Positions 50,258 through 58,451 of a DNA stretch of 64,000 bases are shown here, one piece after another (the stretch's first letter is position 1; each line of letters opens with the position of its first letter). This DNA is from an uncultured Sphingomonadaceae bacterium (GTDB lineage: Bacteria; Pseudomonadota; Alphaproteobacteria; Sphingomonadales; Sphingomonadaceae), in assembly GCA_947501325.1 (NCBI GenBank), contig CANMVC010000001.1:806001-870000 (forward strand). Direction: 5' to 3'. The position numbers and the translations under genes were made by a program. Under the pieces are notes generated by a model. It searched no databases. It had not been told where the DNA came from and saw nothing but the letters and a program-made list of their open reading frames with translations.

Positions 50258-50905
50258 TCAGGCGTAGCTGACTTTGACGTTCGCTTTACGCTGACGACGC
50301 ATGGCACCGCCGATGGTGCCAAAGCCAAAGATCATGAATGCCCATGTTGCTGGCTCAGGAACTGCGCCAAATTGAACATTATCAAATGCGAAACCGTCAT
50401 CCGAGCCTGCAATCGACCGAAACTCGACGGTATCGAATGCTACATCGGAGACTATTCCAAAAAATCCGTCGACTGGAGACACTTGGTCACCGCCAGCAAA
50501 AAGTAACGTCTTATTGGGGTTTCCGTTATTTATCTGGTTAAAAATAGCAGAAAATGAAGAAATGCTATTATCGAAGTTGAGGAAAATGGAGCCACCATCT
50601 GTAATACGGCCCGACAAACTTGGCGTTCCGTTTACGTCAAAGCTTCCGTTGGTAAATCCAGGTCCGATCAGGTTTTGTGAGGGAGAATTACTATTGCCCG
50701 ACAAAGAAACAGTAAATGGTCCAGCGTCAACAGGGGAAACATTAAACTGCGCCGCTGTTGTAAAGCTATCAAATGTTTCGGTCGTGGTTGCCCCAGCTGC
50801 AGCATCAAAAGACGCTTGATCCGTGAACACAATCACCGCAGCTGAAGCGGATGTTGTCATCAGGCCTGCAGAAAGCAATGCGGCGGTCATATAAAGTTTT
50901 TTCAT
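50258..50905 (-). CDS. PEPxxWA-CTERM sorted protein
   Basis: The ATG at 50905 follows AACAGGG; a longer frame to 51004 has no site. The 215-residue product has a signal peptide (KKLYMTAALLSAGLMTTSASA), a passenger of beta-strand and Gly/Ser/Asn-rich sequence, and a C-terminal sorting signal VPEPATWAFMIFGFGTIGGA followed by basic MRRQRK. PEPxxWA-CTERM signals are typical of sphingomonads and direct proteins to exosortase-type processing. No exosortase gene is in the window. Confidence 0.9.
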   Translation of the reverse strand: MKKLYMTAALLSAGLMTTSASAAVIVFTDQASFDAAAGATTTETFDSFTTAAQFNVSPVDAGPFTVSLSGNSNSPSQNLIGPGFTNGSFDVNGTPSLSGRITDGGSIFLNFDNSISSFSAIFNQINNGNPNKTLLFAGGDQVSPVDGFFGIVSDVAFDTVEFRSIAGSDDGFAFDNVQFGAVPEPATWAFMIFGFGTIGGAMRRQRKANVKVSYA

Positions 50906-51061
50906 TTCAATTGCCCTGTTTTGAAATTTTATAGGAAAAATAGATATTGTGACGGTTTTTGCGAACCCTAACAATCCGTTAACAGATTGCACACGGCTGT
51001 ACAACTTGAGTTCTACGCCTTAAGCGAATGTGCCATTTTAGGACGGCGCTTAATGTCGGCG

Positions 51062-51910
51062 TCAGCCAGGCCGCTCCGCCAACAACGCCCGCACCAGCGG
51101 CTGCAAATTCTCGTCATAGCGCGCCAGCATTACATGCTCTTCGGCCGTCTCGAAATGACTGACCAGTTGTTTGCCATTCCACCAGTGCAGAGCAATGGCG
51201 GGCGGGTCGGCCACGATCATATTGCGACCGTCGGGATTTTCCGGATCAATCGGTTCCAGATCAAATGCCACCTGCGGCGCGGTCGAAGCGCAGACGGACA
51301 GGCTTGTGCCTTCAAAAGTCGTGGAGATATTGCGGTGCAAATGGCCGGTAATCATGCCCTTGATCTGATCATGCCCAGCGATCGTGTCAGCCAGTACGGA
51401 TACCCATGGTTCGCGAGGATCGGTATTCATCCACGCTATGCCGGATTCCACCGGCGGGTGATGCAGGATCAAGAGCGTTGGCTTATCCTGCTTTTCTGCC
51501 AGCCGATCGGCCAGCCACTGCGCGCGAATGTCACAAAATGCTCCGCCATGGCGACCTTCTTCCAATGTATCGAGAAAAAGCAATCGCAAGGGCCCGTCAT
51601 CAATTTCATATTGCACGAAACCATCGGCCGACGGAACATCGGGAAATTGTTTTTGAAACGGGGCCCGCAAGTCATGATTGCCCAGGCACATATGGACGGG
51701 AAATGGCAGGTCGGCAAAAGCTTCTTCCAGCCGCTGATAACTGTCCTGATCCCCGCGATCGACCAGGTCACCGGTGGCGAGCAGCGCATCGGGTCGCGGC
51801 GTCATCTCGCACAGCACCTTCAGCGCCTGATCGAGACGTTTGCGGTTAAATTCGGACGGATTATCCGGGTCAAAGCCCAGATGGATATCCGTTACTTGCG
51901 CCAATAGCAT
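51062..51910 (-). CDS. Metallophosphoesterase, CpdA-like
   Basis: A 282-residue calcineurin-type phosphoesterase. The metal site motifs are visible: QVTDIHLGFD, GDLVDRGDQ, CLGNHDLR, LHHPPVES and GHLHRNI. Such class III enzymes include CpdA (3',5'-cAMP phosphodiesterase). The substrate is not established. It lies 53 bases downstream of the FHA-decaheme gene on the same strand. An upstream protein of that operon has two cyclic-nucleotide domains, so cAMP turnover is a tempting hypothesis. Confidence 0.85.
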   Translation of the reverse strand: MLLAQVTDIHLGFDPDNPSEFNRKRLDQALKVLCEMTPRPDALLATGDLVDRGDQDSYQRLEEAFADLPFPVHMCLGNHDLRAPFQKQFPDVPSADGFVQYEIDDGPLRLLFLDTLEEGRHGGAFCDIRAQWLADRLAEKQDKPTLLILHHPPVESGIAWMNTDPREPWVSVLADTIAGHDQIKGMITGHLHRNISTTFEGTSLSVCASTAPQVAFDLEPIDPENPDGRNMIVADPPAIALHWWNGKQLVSHFETAEEHVMLARYDENLQPLVRALLAERPG

Positions 51911-51963: not shown

Positions 51964-53832
51964 CTAGCGGCTGGCAATTTTCTGCTTTCGGATTTTAACC
52001 GTCAGCTTGTCAGACGGTTTCAAGGCATCATTATCATTTGCCATTTTATCGGGTTTTTTCCGCTTGTCTTTTTGCTGCTCCTTGATGAGCCATGGCGCGC
52101 CATCATCAGCATGATAATCATGACACATCGCGCATGTTGATGGGACGTCAGAGGTCTTTTGAAACTCGCCGCCATGACACTCACGGCAGGTCTTGATCCC
52201 TGGCAATAGAAGATCGCGCGCATCATTCGACTTGGTCGCTGCGTGGCAGCTCGTGCAATCCTCATCATTATGCGCTTCGTGGCTGAACCAGCCCTTGTGC
52301 ATATAACGGTCTGTCTGGGTCACAGGCTTGATGCCATAATCGACCCGTCCTTTTGCCGTCGGCGGGGTTACACCGTGGCAATCGAAACAGGCCCCTCCAC
52401 GCGAGAAAACTTGTTCAATGGCCAGGTTGGCGCGACTGGGCCGGAACTGAACAGCGCGCGCATAATCACTAGCGACACGGTTATCATTTTCAGCACCAGG
52501 ACGGCGGCGTTTCATGCCACCCAGATTAATCGGCCGCGATGGGCCGGTTGAACGATAGTAGGCACGCAGGTCAGCGCGCACCATATCCGGTTCGCCATGA
52601 CGCAAGGTCCGCACTGTGTTGCCGATCTCCTCAAAAGCAAGGCTGTGGCACATGCTGCAGTCTTCTTTCATATCCACCGGTTCAAATCGGACGCCATTAG
52701 AATCGGGCGTATGACAATCTGCGCAAACCAGCGAATCGCCAAAATCATATTTGGCTGACAGCCGTCGCCCCATCTGGGCGACGCCGCCGGTTTTCGACAT
52801 ATGCACGTCATGTGGAAATTTCAGACCATTATATTCAGTCGGCTTGTCATCCAGTGAAACGCGCCTACGAGGCGGATTTTTACCGCCGGGCTCGATGAGC
52901 AAGGCGGGACGAAATTGCGGATGCGCAATCCCGAAATCTGATGCATTTTCTAGCTCCGTATCCGCCAAGCGCCCGTCCATTCCCTCGTGACAATCAGCGC
53001 AGAATTTTTGCGCAGTCGGTTGCATAGCACCCTCGCCTTCATGCTCGGTGTGACATTCGACACACCGGCCCGGCGGCTTGTTGAAAGCAGAAGCAAATGC
53101 AGCCCCGACTTTTTCAAAACCTTCTGGTTCTCCGACAGCGGTGAGCAAACGGTCTTTATCGGCATGATCGTGCGCGTCATCTTCATGACAGGTCAGGCAG
53201 GTCTTGTCGGTGACGGTCACAAAGGCATCAACATGACAAGCCTGACAATCGCCCTCCAGACTGTGATGCGCCTCGCTCAGCTTGCCCGATGACCACATCG
53301 TATCGGCATGAAAGCCATCCGGTCGTTCCTCAATGCCTTTATAGGTCGCCCAGGTATAAATCGGCCAGATCAGGAAAGCGGCCAGCACCAGTCCGATAAA
53401 GCTCCACGCGCTTATGCGTTTGCCGGGCAATAGGCCCTTTAATGTATAAAGCGCGCCTTCTTCTCGGTCTTCCGCGGAATCAGACAAAGCCTCGACGCGT
53501 TTGACGGTAAGGACAACACCTTCTTCGTCATGGCTGACCGAAATGACATGACCGCCAAAACCAATCTCTGCGCCTTTGGCGGGATCAATCGTCGCCGTCA
53601 TCTTATCGCGGCCATCGACCGAGAATTTCTGGCCGGAAACGCTCTCAATCTCTATCCGCCCGTCGTCCAGTTGCCGAATGACGGCATGGTCTGGATTGAC
53701 GGCAAGATCGGGTAAATGAATGGCGTTCTGGGCGTTACGGCCAACCCCGATTTGGGGCTCGGCAAACGGATTGGCGCGAATAATCTCGCGGCCATCGGCG
53801 GTTACGGCAATTTGACGAACGATAAATGTCAT
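51964..53832 (-). CDS. FHA domain fused to membrane-anchored decaheme cytochrome c
   Basis: A 622-residue protein. Residues about 20-110 are an FHA domain (PQIGVGRNAQNAIHLPD, then NPDHAVIRQ), a phosphothreonine-binding fold expected in the cytoplasm. Residues about 141-163 (SAWSFIGLVLAAFLIWPIYT) are one transmembrane helix. The rest has ten CxxCH heme motifs (starting at residues 196, 212, 257, 278, 370, 392, 482, 526, 549 and 567) and no signal peptide, so the heme domain should be periplasmic. It follows the cytochrome-b-like gene by 15 bases. I know no characterised protein with this layout. Confidence 0.93.
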   Translation of the reverse strand: MTFIVRQIAVTADGREIIRANPFAEPQIGVGRNAQNAIHLPDLAVNPDHAVIRQLDDGRIEIESVSGQKFSVDGRDKMTATIDPAKGAEIGFGGHVISVSHDEEGVVLTVKRVEALSDSAEDREEGALYTLKGLLPGKRISAWSFIGLVLAAFLIWPIYTWATYKGIEERPDGFHADTMWSSGKLSEAHHSLEGDCQACHVDAFVTVTDKTCLTCHEDDAHDHADKDRLLTAVGEPEGFEKVGAAFASAFNKPPGRCVECHTEHEGEGAMQPTAQKFCADCHEGMDGRLADTELENASDFGIAHPQFRPALLIEPGGKNPPRRRVSLDDKPTEYNGLKFPHDVHMSKTGGVAQMGRRLSAKYDFGDSLVCADCHTPDSNGVRFEPVDMKEDCSMCHSLAFEEIGNTVRTLRHGEPDMVRADLRAYYRSTGPSRPINLGGMKRRRPGAENDNRVASDYARAVQFRPSRANLAIEQVFSRGGACFDCHGVTPPTAKGRVDYGIKPVTQTDRYMHKGWFSHEAHNDEDCTSCHAATKSNDARDLLLPGIKTCRECHGGEFQKTSDVPSTCAMCHDYHADDGAPWLIKEQQKDKRKKPDKMANDNDALKPSDKLTVKIRKQKIASR

Positions 53833-53847
53833 GGGTCTATCTCCCGC

Positions 53848-54729
53848 CTACCAGTAAAAGAAAACGCTGATGATATGCGCCGATAGCGACGCGATCAGGG
53901 CGAAAGTCATGGGCACATGGATGAACAACCAGACCTGCAGCAAGGCCTTCAATCGGAGATGACGGCGCACGCGGGCGAGCGTTGCCTCTTTCTTTTCGAG
54001 CAACGCATCGACTTTATCGAGCGGATCATCGCCCCCCATGCGAGGCTGATAAGCGCGTTCTCGCCGCAAATCAGCCTGCGCAGCGCGGGTAGCGCAATTG
54101 GGATATTTTCCGGACACCCGTTTCAGGAAACCGCCGCCAAAGGGATCCTGTTCCAGCGATTGCAGCACCAGAGCGGCATGTTCCGCCGACAGCGGTTGTG
54201 CCGCTTCATGCAATTGCCGGTCGAGCGAGCGCAGGCTTTCCAGCATCTGCGTCTCGGTCATCTCGTCGCGGTTATTGGACAGCGCCTGCGGAATGGTTGC
54301 ATAGAAATAGATACCGATGATACCCGAGATGATCACGATCATCATGAAGGCATAGGCAGCCGTATGGATGTTCCAGCCAAACTGGAATCCGGTATGCAAG
54401 GTGCCGATGACAATCAGGCTGAGACCGAGATAGATATGCGCTGACGTCCATGCCTTGAGCGACCATTTGCCCGCCGTCATCGCACGTTTGCGCACACCGA
54501 GCATTGTCAGCCACAGGATCAGCCCGGCACCAATGGTCCCCAGCGTATAGCCATACCAGCTGCCGCCATTGTGGCGGGGGGAGACGTCGATAAAAAGATA
54601 GCTGACAATGGATATCAGCATGATGAAGGATGCTATTTTCAGCCATTTATAACCGGCATGCTTCAGAAAGCCGTCATGCATGGCGACTTTCTTTTTCGTG
54701 CCGCCGCCGGGAACAGGAACAGAGGCCAT
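53848..54729 (-). CDS. Cytochrome-b561/ferric-reductase-like membrane subunit
   Basis: A 293-residue protein with five membrane helices (MLISIVSYLFIDV, GTIGAGLILWLTMLGV, AHIYLGLSLIVIGTLH, TAAYAFMMIVIISGIIGIYF and a C-terminal one with FIHVPMTFALIASLSAH). Histidines in helices 3, 4 and 5 (SAHIY, GTLHTGF, NIHTAAY, LFIHVP, SAHIIS) could bind two b hemes. A soluble loop of about 100 residues lies between helices 4 and 5. The start codon shares a base with the stop of the upstream 816-residue gene (TAATG), implying coupling. It likely passes electrons across the inner membrane. Confidence 0.85.
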   Translation of the reverse strand: MASVPVPGGGTKKKVAMHDGFLKHAGYKWLKIASFIMLISIVSYLFIDVSPRHNGGSWYGYTLGTIGAGLILWLTMLGVRKRAMTAGKWSLKAWTSAHIYLGLSLIVIGTLHTGFQFGWNIHTAAYAFMMIVIISGIIGIYFYATIPQALSNNRDEMTETQMLESLRSLDRQLHEAAQPLSAEHAALVLQSLEQDPFGGGFLKRVSGKYPNCATRAAQADLRRERAYQPRMGGDDPLDKVDALLEKKEATLARVRRHLRLKALLQVWLFIHVPMTFALIASLSAHIISVFFYW

Positions 54730-57179
54730 TATGCGTCCTCCTGCTCAAGCTTGGCGACGGTGAGGAATTCCTCTGGAGCAACACGGATCGCGGCACCGGT
54801 CGGACAAGCGCGAACGCAGGCCGGACCGCCTTTTATGCCGGCGCACATATCGCACTTAATCGCTTTTTTGGGCTTCTCGACCGCTGGATCACTGTTTTCA
54901 GCAACCCAATTCTTGTCCGGTTCACCCGGGCCGGGACCAAAGCCAAAGAGCAACCAGTTGAGGATACCCGGCTTCTTGGGCGGCACCTTGTCCATACGGA
55001 TCACACCGTAAGGGCAGTAGCGCTGGCAATTGCCGCAGCCGATACAGGTGTCATCGATAAACACTTCGCCATCGGGACCGCGGTGGATCGCGTCAGGTGG
55101 ACAGTCGGACATGCAATGCGGATGCTCGCAATGACGGCAGCTGGTCGGAACGTGCAAATGCGCATAGGTACGCCCGGCTTCGCGATCAAGACGGGAAAGG
55201 CCCTCATGGCTGTCGGCGCAGGCTTTCTCGCAATTGTCGCAACCGACACAAAGGTTTTCATCGATCAGCAACACATCGGTCGCCTCGCCAATACCATTGT
55301 CGACGAGGAAATTGGCGACCCCGGAATACATGTCGACAACCCCCGAGAAACTGTCTTTCTTGGCTTCGACAAATGCGTTGATATCTTGCCGTGCGGCCAT
55401 ATCCTTTTTGGCCCGGCGAAGCAGATCGGGATGGGCGTCGAGAACTTTCTTGAACGCGTCGCCCTTTATCTTGATGACTTCCGACTTGATCGCCGCCTTG
55501 ACCGTCGCCGTGCGCATACCGCCAGCAATCAGGGTCATTTCGCCGACATAGGAACCGGCTGGGAGATAGGAGAGGAACACCGGCTTTCCGCCAATTTCCT
55601 TTTCCACTACCATCGATCCGACGCGGATGACAAAAATGTCATTACCGTCATCGCCTTCGTTGATAATTGTTTCACCAGCGCGAACGTTGACGATCTCGCT
55701 CGTCTCTACTGCTTCTGCTATATCTTCCTTGGTCAAGCCGGAGCCGAACATCTGCAGCAATTGCCGTTCGGTCGATATCCGGGTGATTGCGCGCTTGGCG
55801 GCAGGGACAGACGCCTGCAATTTCAGCGCCGCCGTGCGCGACACTTCAATCACGATCATATCTTCAGCTGCCCTGACCGTAGCGCCCCGACGACGGCCGG
55901 AGATCAACCCGACCTCACCAAAGATCGAGCCTTCTTCAATCGGAATGACTTTGGAGCTGTCGTTCGGATCAACCTCGACCAGCACCGAGCCCTGCGCAAT
56001 AGTGAACAGCGATGATCCGGGATCATTGCGCTCAAACACGACCTCATCGCGGCGATAGGCGCGTGCCTCGCTGTCGAGCATAAACTCGCGCATCTGCAAC
56101 GGCGACAGATCGTTGAGGATGGTCACTTTCTCGCGGAAAAATTCGAGCCACTCATCGACCGACTTGCCACCCGGCAGGCCAGCAAATTTCTTCTCGAGAA
56201 TGGGCTCGTCAGCAGGTTTCAGGTCAGTGTTGCCGTTGATAAATTCAATGACATCATAGCCCTGGTTCATGCAGTGCTTGATCAGCGGATAGCCCGCCAA
56301 AGCGCCGATGACATAAATGCCCTTTTTCGTGCTTTCAAAAGCCGGGGTCAGCTTGGGGTAGGCCTCGCGATCTTCGCTGGTAAATTCTATCCCGCATTCT
56401 TCGACAAATTTGCGCGGCGGGGCAGATCCCATGCGCGCTATGATGCGGTCGCAGGGAATCGTTTCCTGTCCATCACGCGTTTCGAGAACCAGCTCACCAT
56501 CCTTAACTTCGGCTGGCGTCGTCTCGTTGCGGATCATCACCTTGCCCTGCTCACCCGCTTCCATCAGCAGCTTCACATTGGCTTTCTTCGCCCGGGCAAA
56601 TTCGGCCGAACGGTTTAGAATCGTGACAATATTATTCTGCGCAGCATCCGCCGCCAGACCGAGCGCATTTTCTATTCCCGCATCGCCGGAACCGATGACC
56701 GTAATATGCTCGTCATAATATTCACCGGGATCATCCAGTTGATACTGCACCAGCTTGTTGTCACCACCGGGGCAGCGCATCAGATTGGGGTTGCCTTGCG
56801 TACCAATGGCCATAACGATGGTCTCGGCCAACACTTTATCGCCGTTTTTCAGGGTGATGGTGAAGTTGCCCTCTTCCCCTTCAATCTTCACCGGCTCCGC
56901 ATTAAACTGGACATTGACGCCGCACACTTCGGTCTGCTTGTCCCAGGTGCCCAGGATCGCCTCGCGCTTGCCCGCGTCAAAATCCATATCCGAGCGCAGC
57001 ACCAGCTGGCTCGGCGTCGCCATGACATGCTTGCCTTTTTGATATTTATAGATGGTGTCCGACAGATGATCGGTCTTTTCCAGCAGCACATGTTTGAGCT
57101 TTAATTGCGCAGCACGACCAGCGGCACTCATGCCTGCCGGGCCAGATCCCACGATCACAACTCGAAACTTATCCGCCAC
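54729..57179 (-). CDS. FAD/NAD(P) reductase with two cNMP-binding domains and four [4Fe-4S] clusters
   Basis: An 816-residue protein. Residues 1-320 are a thioredoxin-reductase-like flavoprotein with FAD motif VGSGPAGMSAA and NAD(P) motif VIGSGDAGIENA; no CxxC active site is seen. Two cyclic-nucleotide domains follow, around 365-480 (FGEVGLISGRRRGATVRA) and 483-600 (VGEMTLIAGGMRTATVKA). Both keep the Glu and Arg of the phosphate-binding cassette. Residues 640-800 are a DmsB-like ferredoxin with sixteen cysteines in four groups (from 644, 681, 712 and 776). It is cytoplasmic and begins the three-gene redox operon. Confidence 0.94.
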   Translation of the reverse strand: MADKFRVVIVGSGPAGMSAAGRAAQLKLKHVLLEKTDHLSDTIYKYQKGKHVMATPSQLVLRSDMDFDAGKREAILGTWDKQTEVCGVNVQFNAEPVKIEGEEGNFTITLKNGDKVLAETIVMAIGTQGNPNLMRCPGGDNKLVQYQLDDPGEYYDEHITVIGSGDAGIENALGLAADAAQNNIVTILNRSAEFARAKKANVKLLMEAGEQGKVMIRNETTPAEVKDGELVLETRDGQETIPCDRIIARMGSAPPRKFVEECGIEFTSEDREAYPKLTPAFESTKKGIYVIGALAGYPLIKHCMNQGYDVIEFINGNTDLKPADEPILEKKFAGLPGGKSVDEWLEFFREKVTILNDLSPLQMREFMLDSEARAYRRDEVVFERNDPGSSLFTIAQGSVLVEVDPNDSSKVIPIEEGSIFGEVGLISGRRRGATVRAAEDMIVIEVSRTAALKLQASVPAAKRAITRISTERQLLQMFGSGLTKEDIAEAVETSEIVNVRAGETIINEGDDGNDIFVIRVGSMVVEKEIGGKPVFLSYLPAGSYVGEMTLIAGGMRTATVKAAIKSEVIKIKGDAFKKVLDAHPDLLRRAKKDMAARQDINAFVEAKKDSFSGVVDMYSGVANFLVDNGIGEATDVLLIDENLCVGCDNCEKACADSHEGLSRLDREAGRTYAHLHVPTSCRHCEHPHCMSDCPPDAIHRGPDGEVFIDDTCIGCGNCQRYCPYGVIRMDKVPPKKPGILNWLLFGFGPGPGEPDKNWVAENSDPAVEKPKKAIKCDMCAGIKGGPACVRACPTGAAIRVAPEEFLTVAKLEQEDA

Positions 57180-57455
57180 GCGCTTCTTCCCCCTTTTACC
57201 GTTTCAGCCCAACGCGCCCTCATGCGTTTTCACAGACCAATGCAGCAATCTTTTTCGGCTTAAGCGCGACCCCAAAAGACTTAACTTACCAGCATCTTAC
57301 CAAAAAGCTATTGAGATACCAGTGGAAAATATCACAGTTTGAACCGCATTGGACCCTATATACCATAAGCAACAAAATAGTTGTCAAAACGGTTCAGTTT
57401 ACGACAATGCATAGCTATCAAGAGGGTCGCACCTGTAGAGGAAGAATTTTTAGAT

Positions 57456-58451
57456 ATGAGCGAGCCAGAAACAACCGCAGACAAACCCAAAAAGACCGAC
57501 GGCAATATTAGCCGTATAGCCTTGATACTGGCGGCAGTCCTTGCTGTTGGAGCGGTTGGCGTGCAAGTTTATCGCAGCATGGATGGGGAGGGTTCGGACA
57601 CGCAAGCCACCACCACAGCCGCCGCAGGTGAATCGGAACAGCCTCCCAGTGTCGATGAAGTCATCGCAGGACTGGAAAAAAAGCTGCAGGATGATCCCAG
57701 AGACGCGGAAAGCTGGCGCATGCTGGGCTGGAGCTATTTCGAAACCCAGAAATTTGCGGAATCCGCCACCGCGATGAAACGCGCGACAACTCTGGATCCC
57801 AAGAACCCGGAATATTGGTCGATGCTCGGGGAAGCTCTGGTCATGTCGAGTGATGGCCAGCAAGTCCCTGCTGACGCCGCCGACGCCTTCAGAAAAGCGC
57901 TGGCGCTGGACAAAACAGATCCCCGTGCACGCTATTTCCTGGCAGTACAGAAAGATATTTCCGGCGATCATCAGGGCGCGATTAATGACTGGTTCGCATT
58001 GCTCGAAGACACGCCCTCTGACGCGCCTTATGCAGCGGATATCCGCCGAGTGATCGGACAGGTGGCGGAAAAAGAGAATATTGACGTCGCTGCGCGTCTC
58101 GCCAAGGTCGCGCCGGCAGAACCCACCGGCGGTATTTCAACAGATGGCCCGCAAGTCGCAACCGCCGCAATTCCCGGCCCCAGCCGCGAGCAGATGCAGG
58201 AAGCCGCCGCGCTACCGGCCGGCCAGCAAGAAGCGATGATTGCCAATATGGTCGAGGGCCTGGACAAACGACTGCAGTCCAACCCCAATGATGCCAATGG
58301 CTGGATCATGTTGATGCGCAGCCGCCAGCAATTGGGGCAAACCGTGAAGGCCAAAAAGGCAATGTCCGACGGGTTGGCCGCGTTCAAAAATGATGGGGCT
58401 GAGGCAAAGCGAATTAGAGAAGCGGCAATGGCCTTGGGTATTGGAGGGTAG
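57456..58451 (+). CDS. CcmI/CycH-like TPR protein of cytochrome c biogenesis
   Basis: ATG at 57456, with GAGGAAG upstream, gives 331 residues; a longer frame opens at 57381. An N-terminal membrane helix (ISRIALILAAVLAVGAVGVQ) is followed by TPR motifs (DAESWRMLGWSYFETQKFAE, NPEYWSMLGEALVMS, DPRARYFLAVQKDISGDHQGA). A C-terminal repeat adds NDANGWIMLMRSRQQLGQTV. This is the layout of CcmI/CycH apocytochrome c chaperones, though only part of a full Ccm locus is here. It is divergent from the redox operon, which needs ten c hemes attached. Confidence 0.75.
   Translation: MSEPETTADKPKKTDGNISRIALILAAVLAVGAVGVQVYRSMDGEGSDTQATTTAAAGESEQPPSVDEVIAGLEKKLQDDPRDAESWRMLGWSYFETQKFAESATAMKRATTLDPKNPEYWSMLGEALVMSSDGQQVPADAADAFRKALALDKTDPRARYFLAVQKDISGDHQGAINDWFALLEDTPSDAPYAADIRRVIGQVAEKENIDVAARLAKVAPAEPTGGISTDGPQVATAAIPGPSREQMQEAAALPAGQQEAMIANMVEGLDKRLQSNPNDANGWIMLMRSRQQLGQTVKAKKAMSDGLAAFKNDGAEAKRIREAAMALGIGG

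Follow-up and report, generated by a model that had tools for sequence, protein, structure and literature searches.

The Hmc, Tmc and Qrc complexes of sulfate reducers are built from multiheme c-type cytochromes, cytochrome b and iron-sulfur (Fe-S) parts, and conduits that carry electrons across the cell envelope are a known kind of system. The extracellular-electron systems reviewed in PMC7096707 draw their electrons from the quinol pool. The locus described here lies in a stretch of 64,000 nucleotides (the window) from an uncultured Sphingomonadaceae bacterium (GCA_947501325.1, contig CANMVC010000001.1, positions 806,001 to 870,000), and comprises three leftward genes (genes 1-3; table 1) for a reductase with cyclic-nucleotide-binding (cNMP) domains, a membrane cytochrome b and a multiheme c-type cytochrome with an FHA domain. 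These genes probably specify the inner-membrane half of an electron conduit across the cell envelope, which would be fed directly by NAD(P)H and gated by a cyclic nucleotide, an architecture that looks like a new variant of the known kind; in the open-access PMC literature, preprints excluded, no description of the operon or of the system was found.

The first-pass annotation of this DNA had described three leftward genes with a TAATG junction and a 15-base gap, encoding a NAD(P)/FAD reductase with two cyclic-nucleotide domains and sixteen ferredoxin cysteines, a His-rich five-helix membrane protein and a decaheme c cytochrome, and each of these descriptions is borne out: coordinates and junctions are exact, genes 1 and 2 overlapping in TAATG and genes 2 and 3 being separated by 15 bases (53833-53847). 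In the gene 1 protein, Pfam places Pyr_redox_2 at residues 5-307, followed by two cNMP_binding stretches (PF00027, 106.8 bits for a cut-off of 27.5), and 16 ferredoxin-type cysteines stand in four sets between residues 644 and 792. All 16 are invariant in ten out of ten diverse homologues (44-71% identity to the window protein). The Glu-Arg pair of each phosphate-binding cassette (E422/R431 and E547/R556) is likewise invariant in them, its two residues being 9 apart, the same spacing as in the alignment with RI-alpha of protein kinase A (PKA). The best PDB relatives of residues 376-590 are PKA regulatory subunits, while those of the FAD/NAD(P) module are 7a76 and 7a7b (YpdA/Bdr). The FAD and Fe-S parts bear no visible secretion signal. 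A second gene 1 copy (L041 8485-10962, G060:C17) is found in a genome that also has the full three-gene set (L039).

The gene 2 protein has five hydrophobic regions, with helices also in its AlphaFold2 model, and five histidines that are invariant in 89/89 sequences. Four of them form two pairs, H98/H112 and H271/H285, each spaced by 14 residues, a pattern typical of diheme b-type cytochromes with bis-His ligation, H122 being the fifth. With two invariant His pairs in membrane helices, gene 2 is thus predicted to be such a cytochrome; if its Lys/Arg-rich N-terminus and the invariant Arg80-Lys81-Arg82 face the cytosol, each side of the membrane would have one heme close to it. The window protein scores 16.6 bits against PF01292 (Cytochrome b561/Ni_hydr_CYTB; cut-off 30.1); at E <= 0.1 this model finds 25 of 29 homologues, the strongest at 4.9e-7. 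A structure search with gene 2 gave nothing at E <= 0.001 (best 0.13), and a PDB profile search no credible relative, its best hits (E 0.15) being unrelated proteins.

Gene 3 combines one transmembrane helix with ten CxxCH motifs, which are kept in all of the 85-86 sequences reaching each column. In the heme region ten further histidines outside the motifs (189, 223, 264, 304, 341, 344, 412, 518, 521 and 574) are each kept in 84 or more of the 85-86 sequences that cover the position, and would supply one candidate distal ligand per heme. Residues 1-112 fold as an FHA domain (Foldseek best E 1.3e-5, 33 chains at E <= 0.001, the top rows all being FHA domains or FHA-containing complexes); the Pfam FHA model is matched by 25/29 homologues at E <= 0.01, the window protein falling just below the cut-off (19.2 versus 20.7 bits). 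A single-sequence PDB search with gene 3 found no relative. Since heme attachment to c-type cytochromes takes place outside the cytosol, the FHA domain should be inside and the hemes outside. The homologues in L040 and L042 count 9 CxxCH, one site there being CX4CH.

That genes 1-3 are one functional unit is supported by their genomic record. A contig scan gave at least 593 candidate stretches, at least 566 of which encode a relative; neighbourhood counts were taken from the best 80, considering loci with a long enough flank and adjacency within the distance limits of the script. Gene 2 follows gene 1 in 78/78 assessable loci, gene 3 comes next in 75/75 and gene 4, a metallophosphoesterase gene, follows gene 3 in 68/70. 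Furthermore, in two distant genomes of one genus (L040 and L042) genes 1 and 2 are a single protein of 1123 and 1118 residues, respectively, followed by gene 3, a natural fusion which suggests that the two proteins touch. The first-pass annotation had advised looking for co-occurrence in other genomes. Among 246 genomes of the order, in which the best first-look candidates of each genome were scored, genes 1, 2 and 3 (E <= 1e-60, 1e-15 and 1e-30) each match 55, and a large multiheme cytochrome encoded elsewhere in the window's genome (E <= 1e-40) matches the same 55. In six genera carriers occur together with listed non-carriers, and the pattern there is identical for the four genes; of the 191 non-carriers, 20 were listed by name. 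Any simple probability attached to such co-occurrence would be inflated by common ancestry; still, genes that are present or absent together although unlinked point to a joint function.

The large cytochrome belongs to an outer-membrane-type module, which in the window's genome lies 122 kb from the operon (C1:732868-742634) and comprises a c554-like protein (4 CxxCH and 1 CX4CH), an HbpS-like lipoprotein with the lipobox LTSC, a predicted beta-barrel ending in Phe and the large cytochrome itself, an LVIVD protein with 10 CxxCH. The outer-membrane location of these proteins is predicted. The c554-like gene is beside the module in 11 loci and was not seen there in L151-L154; the atypical CX4CH was noted in the c554-like protein at L169 6869-8275. 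In the 55 carriers, gene 1 and the large cytochrome are at most 25 kb apart in 29 genomes, farther apart on one contig in 10 (nearest 29 kb) and on different contigs in 16, some possibly split by assembly only. In the sphingomonad set L045-L124, 40/80 loci include the large cytochrome, mostly in convergent orientation to the operon; in many the sequence is cut off at the end of the locus. In another order of the phylum, that of genome G213, all three genes occur in 13 of the 14 loci examined (L137-L150; the contig of L139 ends after gene 1). Together with L038, the locus of G213 itself, 13 loci extend usefully past gene 3: the HbpS-like gene comes next in 11, L138 and L149 being the exceptions, and is followed by the predicted barrel and the secreted large cytochrome where the contig allows. 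Family searches with these proteins gave three HbpS-like stretches (PF03928) and, for the large protein, an LVIVD repeat besides c-type domains.

Operon and module genes also stand side by side on plasmid pMSHV of Sphingobium herbicidovorans MH (L172, NZ_CP020539.1 12128-31338). The annotation there gives generic names, in the order cyclic nucleotide-binding domain-containing protein, hypothetical protein, cytochrome c3 family protein and metallophosphoesterase; the opposite strand continues with multiheme c-type cytochrome, hypothetical protein, heme-binding protein and cytochrome c family protein. The plasmid has a further metallophosphoesterase gene, located behind the gene of the divergent TPR protein. 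In Sphingobium the system is found on large plasmids or secondary replicons; the 12 plasmid records, all from this genus, comprise 11 typed as non-mobilizable and 1 as conjugative.

Observed domains, conserved ligands, gene order, a natural fusion and co-occurrence are the basis from which we infer cofactor occupancy, the order of electron transfer, the location of the outer-membrane proteins, gating and an outward direction. Cytosolic NAD(P)H would reduce the FAD of gene 1, and electrons would pass through its four [4Fe-4S] clusters to the diheme cytochrome b of gene 2, where hemes held by H98/H271 towards the cytosol and H112/H285 towards the periplasm would take them across the inner membrane and hand them to the anchored decaheme cytochrome of gene 3. 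From there they would reach the outer-membrane module, the c554-like multiheme protein being the probable intermediate in sphingomonads; in that module, barrel and HbpS-like lipoprotein would accompany the 10-heme cytochrome, its LVIVD propeller facing outside. The strength of NAD(P)H as a reductant favours outward flow; a wire can also run backwards. The first-pass annotation had proposed a trans-membrane conduit from NAD(P)H with direction and partner unknown. Its single unit and its FAD-FeS-heme b-heme c arrangement are upheld by the sequence comparisons, and the co-occurring module is now a concrete candidate for the partner. As to extent, that annotation was right about the three genes and stopped one gene short, before gene 4, the unlinked module having been beyond its view.

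The tandem PKA-type domains would gate the flavin-to-Fe-S step by binding a cyclic nucleotide, their place between FAD and Fe-S clusters making them a natural site for a conformational gate. In sphingomonads, the putative phosphodiesterase of gene 4 would then reset the signal. The cyclic-nucleotide input that had been proposed at first is supported by the retention of both phosphate-binding cassettes and by the phosphodiesterase-type gene next in line. Gene 4 scores 66.7 bits against PF00149 (metallophosphoesterase; cut-off 21.5), and its PDB relatives are Rv0805 and the GpdQ-type phosphohydrolase 2dxl; a cyclic nucleotide is a plausible substrate. All 55 carriers have a gene 4 match, and the window's genome contains two class III nucleotide cyclase matches.

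Several observations weigh against the conduit so described. The extra gene 1 in L041 has neither gene 2 nor gene 3 beside it. The structure model of gene 3 (mean pLDDT, predicted local distance difference test, 63.9) is reliable for the FHA part alone and unreliable for the decaheme part. Recognition of phosphoproteins by the FHA domain is doubtful: in the usual FHA motif, S-x-x-H, the Ser serves phosphothreonine, and in gene 3 Gly-Arg is kept, but this Ser is present in only one of the nine members displayed and is Asn in the window protein, so that the proposed gating by phosphoprotein binding is not sustained. The assignment of the barrel is weak, with Alginate_exp matching 4/11 and DESULF_POR1 3/11 members, all below cut-off, and that of the window's own genome matching no family; in PDB profile searches the barrel gave one chance match (0.42) and the large cytochrome none. 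No module was seen in the vicinity of the operon in L040, L042, L138/L157 and L149/L159, the rest of those genomes not having been searched (L039 is too short to judge). Gene 4 remains below the NCBIfam cut-offs (SpdA, 136.5 versus 400 bits; CpdA, 82.1 versus 225 bits), is also matched in 14 non-carriers and was not detected in the loci of the second order. Finally, family-wide transcriptional control by cAMP is not supported. A CRP-type operator reaching 8/10 consensus bases is found in 17/82 upstream regions, 8 of them from close relatives of the window, while the rate in shuffled regions is 9.8%; control spacings give 1/82 and 3/82, FNR-like sites 15/82, and an exact-pattern scan found none in 17 upstream regions of the genus nor in 3 of outer-membrane operons. 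Transcriptional cAMP control is therefore not claimed for the family.

The same wire run in reverse, from an extracellular donor through the outer-membrane module to Fe-S and FAD for the reduction of NAD(P)+, is an unlikely reading, although PMC10734462 says with regard to Mto/Mtr that multiheme wires can run both ways, and a table in it lists, under 'Other', a cluster 403 named 'Forkhead-associated protein', with 10 heme motifs, in 27/87 iron-oxidiser genomes, which is possibly related to gene 3. Reduction of NAD(P)+ would be uphill from most extracellular donors, and a part that could couple it to energy is not visible. The hosts, moreover, are among the best 80 loci mostly sphingomonads, which are usually aerobic heterotrophs. 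Rather unlikely, too, is an independent role of the inner-membrane genes as NAD(P)H:quinone or NAD(P)H:periplasmic-cytochrome reductase, e.g. as a source of reductant for cytochrome c maturation, the module being a separate matter. Such a function would fit the divergent CcmH/CycH-type gene, adjacent to the operon in 72/78 assessable relatives, the fifth invariant histidine of gene 2 (H122) and the precedent of polyferredoxin and cytochrome b pairs that elsewhere feed quinone; what argues for the conduit instead is that the large cytochrome and genes 1-3 occupy the same 55/246 genomes even when unlinked, and that in another order the module is directly contiguous with the operon.

A conduit may also be real and yet have no second-messenger gate, its cNMP domains being structural or binding another ligand. 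The GpdQ-like features of gene 4 (2dxl), which make its substrate uncertain, and the lack of a family-wide CRP-type operator would agree with this, but the cassette Glu and Arg that align with PKA RI-alpha and are invariant in 10/10 homologues, together with gene 4 coming next in 68/70 assessable relatives, make it quite improbable. Taking the gated, outward conduit further, to an undescribed extracellular-electron-transfer system, widespread among sphingomonads, that is fed by NAD(P)H rather than by quinol and switched allosterically by a cyclic nucleotide on the reductase itself, is a step that we take tentatively. To our knowledge, sphingomonads are not usually counted as electroactive. If the proposal is true, a second messenger gates a wire between cytosol and cell surface, in a system that starts at NAD(P)H, has its own cyclic-nucleotide switch and is present in 55/246 sampled genomes of the order; furthermore, the genes named at two unlinked loci are expected to share one deletion phenotype.

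Table 1. Features of the operon and its surroundings in the window.
Feature	Coordinates	Strand	Description
gene 1	54729..57179	-	816 aa, GTG start; FAD/NAD(P)H reductase module, tandem cNMP domains and four predicted [4Fe-4S]
gene 1, FAD/NAD(P) module	56232..57179	-	aa 1-316; YpdA/Bdr-like, with Ala in place of the active-site Cys14
gene 1, tandem cNMP-binding domains	55410..56054	-	aa 376-590; E422/R431 and E547/R556 invariant in 10/10
gene 1, polyferredoxin part	54780..55271	-	aa 637-800; 16 invariant Cys, HycB/FdhB-like
gene 2	53848..54729	-	293 aa, predicted five-helix cytochrome b; invariant His 98, 112, 122, 271, 285
gene 3	51964..53832	-	622 aa; FHA (aa 1-112), transmembrane helix (137-164), predicted periplasmic decaheme c domain (189-574)
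gene 4	51062..51910	-	282 aa, relative of class III cyclic-nucleotide phosphodiesterases, 53 bases past gene 3
divergent neighbour	57456..58451	+	protein with TPR of the type in cytochrome c biogenesis protein H/I; start codon taken to be at 57456
intergenic region of the divergent pair	57180..57455	.	block some 90 bases ahead of gene 1 that is conserved in the window's genus

The conserved block upstream of gene 1 reads GGGTCGCG in the window's genus and GGGTTCGCA in others (window 57180-57455; L169 6616-6868; L170; L171). The GGGTCGCG element is found in 13/82 inner-membrane and 2/9 outer-membrane-operon upstream regions versus 30/1640 control windows, and the similar block upstream of unlinked outer-membrane operons is possibly a shared promoter element. 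Over the phylum gene 1 is patchy, with 9/299 sampled genomes including the window's own; it is present in 31/32 genomes of the window's genus, 33/60 of a sample of relatives, 2/48 genomes of the order of G093 and 31/150 of the order of G213. A viral origin was considered and rejected: 10 stretches fitted a pattern, but 0 relatives were found in viral contigs. Downstream of gene 4, a secreted protein (window 50258-51004, minus strand) with what we take to be a PEP-CTERM-like C-terminus is probably unrelated to the system.

Gene 1 shares its FAD/NAD(P) module with the bacillithiol disulfide reductase YpdA/Bdr, and was rejected as a member of that family: the Cys14 of GGGPC-G, whose role in the YpdA/Bdr active site is treated in PMC6591457, is replaced by Ala, and the score is 119.9 bits versus a cut-off of 339.9. 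With the PKA regulatory subunit it has in common the tandem cNMP domains and their Glu-Arg spacing, but without kinase or pseudosubstrate, the tandem sitting instead within a redox enzyme. The cluster 403 of PMC10734462, whose main text does not contain the terms 'FHA', 'cyclic nucleotide' or 'Cluster 403', is the sole possible trace of the system that was found in print, and resembles gene 3 by its FHA-type name and its 10 heme motifs; if the family is the same, the present system may give context to that decaheme protein of iron oxidisers. ExtM, of a selenite/tellurite reduction operon, has local similarity, in three stretches of which the best spans some 50 residues (E 4.2e-19), to the large cytochrome, which scores 68.3 bits versus a cut-off of 800. 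Gene 3 gives weak local matches to the HmcA, TmcA and QrcA models, all far below cut-off, and the operon shares multiheme c, cytochrome b and Fe-S parts with Hmc/Tmc/Qrc, but differs in that its cytosolic end is an FAD/cNMP protein and its multiheme c-type cytochrome has an FHA anchor. Membership in MtrCAB/MtoAB was rejected, the MtrB/PioB family model, which we take to be part of NCBIfam, being matched by none of 11 barrel homologues (E <= 0.1) nor by the copy of the window's genome, as was an MtrA-type (DmsE family) decaheme (TIGR03508, cut-off 192.2 bits; c554-like protein 19.6, gene 3 14.6). MtrCAB/MtoAB and PCC3, as presented in PMC7096707 and PMC10734462, likewise combine periplasmic and surface multiheme cytochromes with an outer-membrane barrel, and pass electrons across that membrane; here, the large cytochrome, the c554-like protein and the barrel fall short of the models of those families, and electrons would enter at NAD(P)H and not at quinol, through an entry enzyme that itself carries the cNMP domains.

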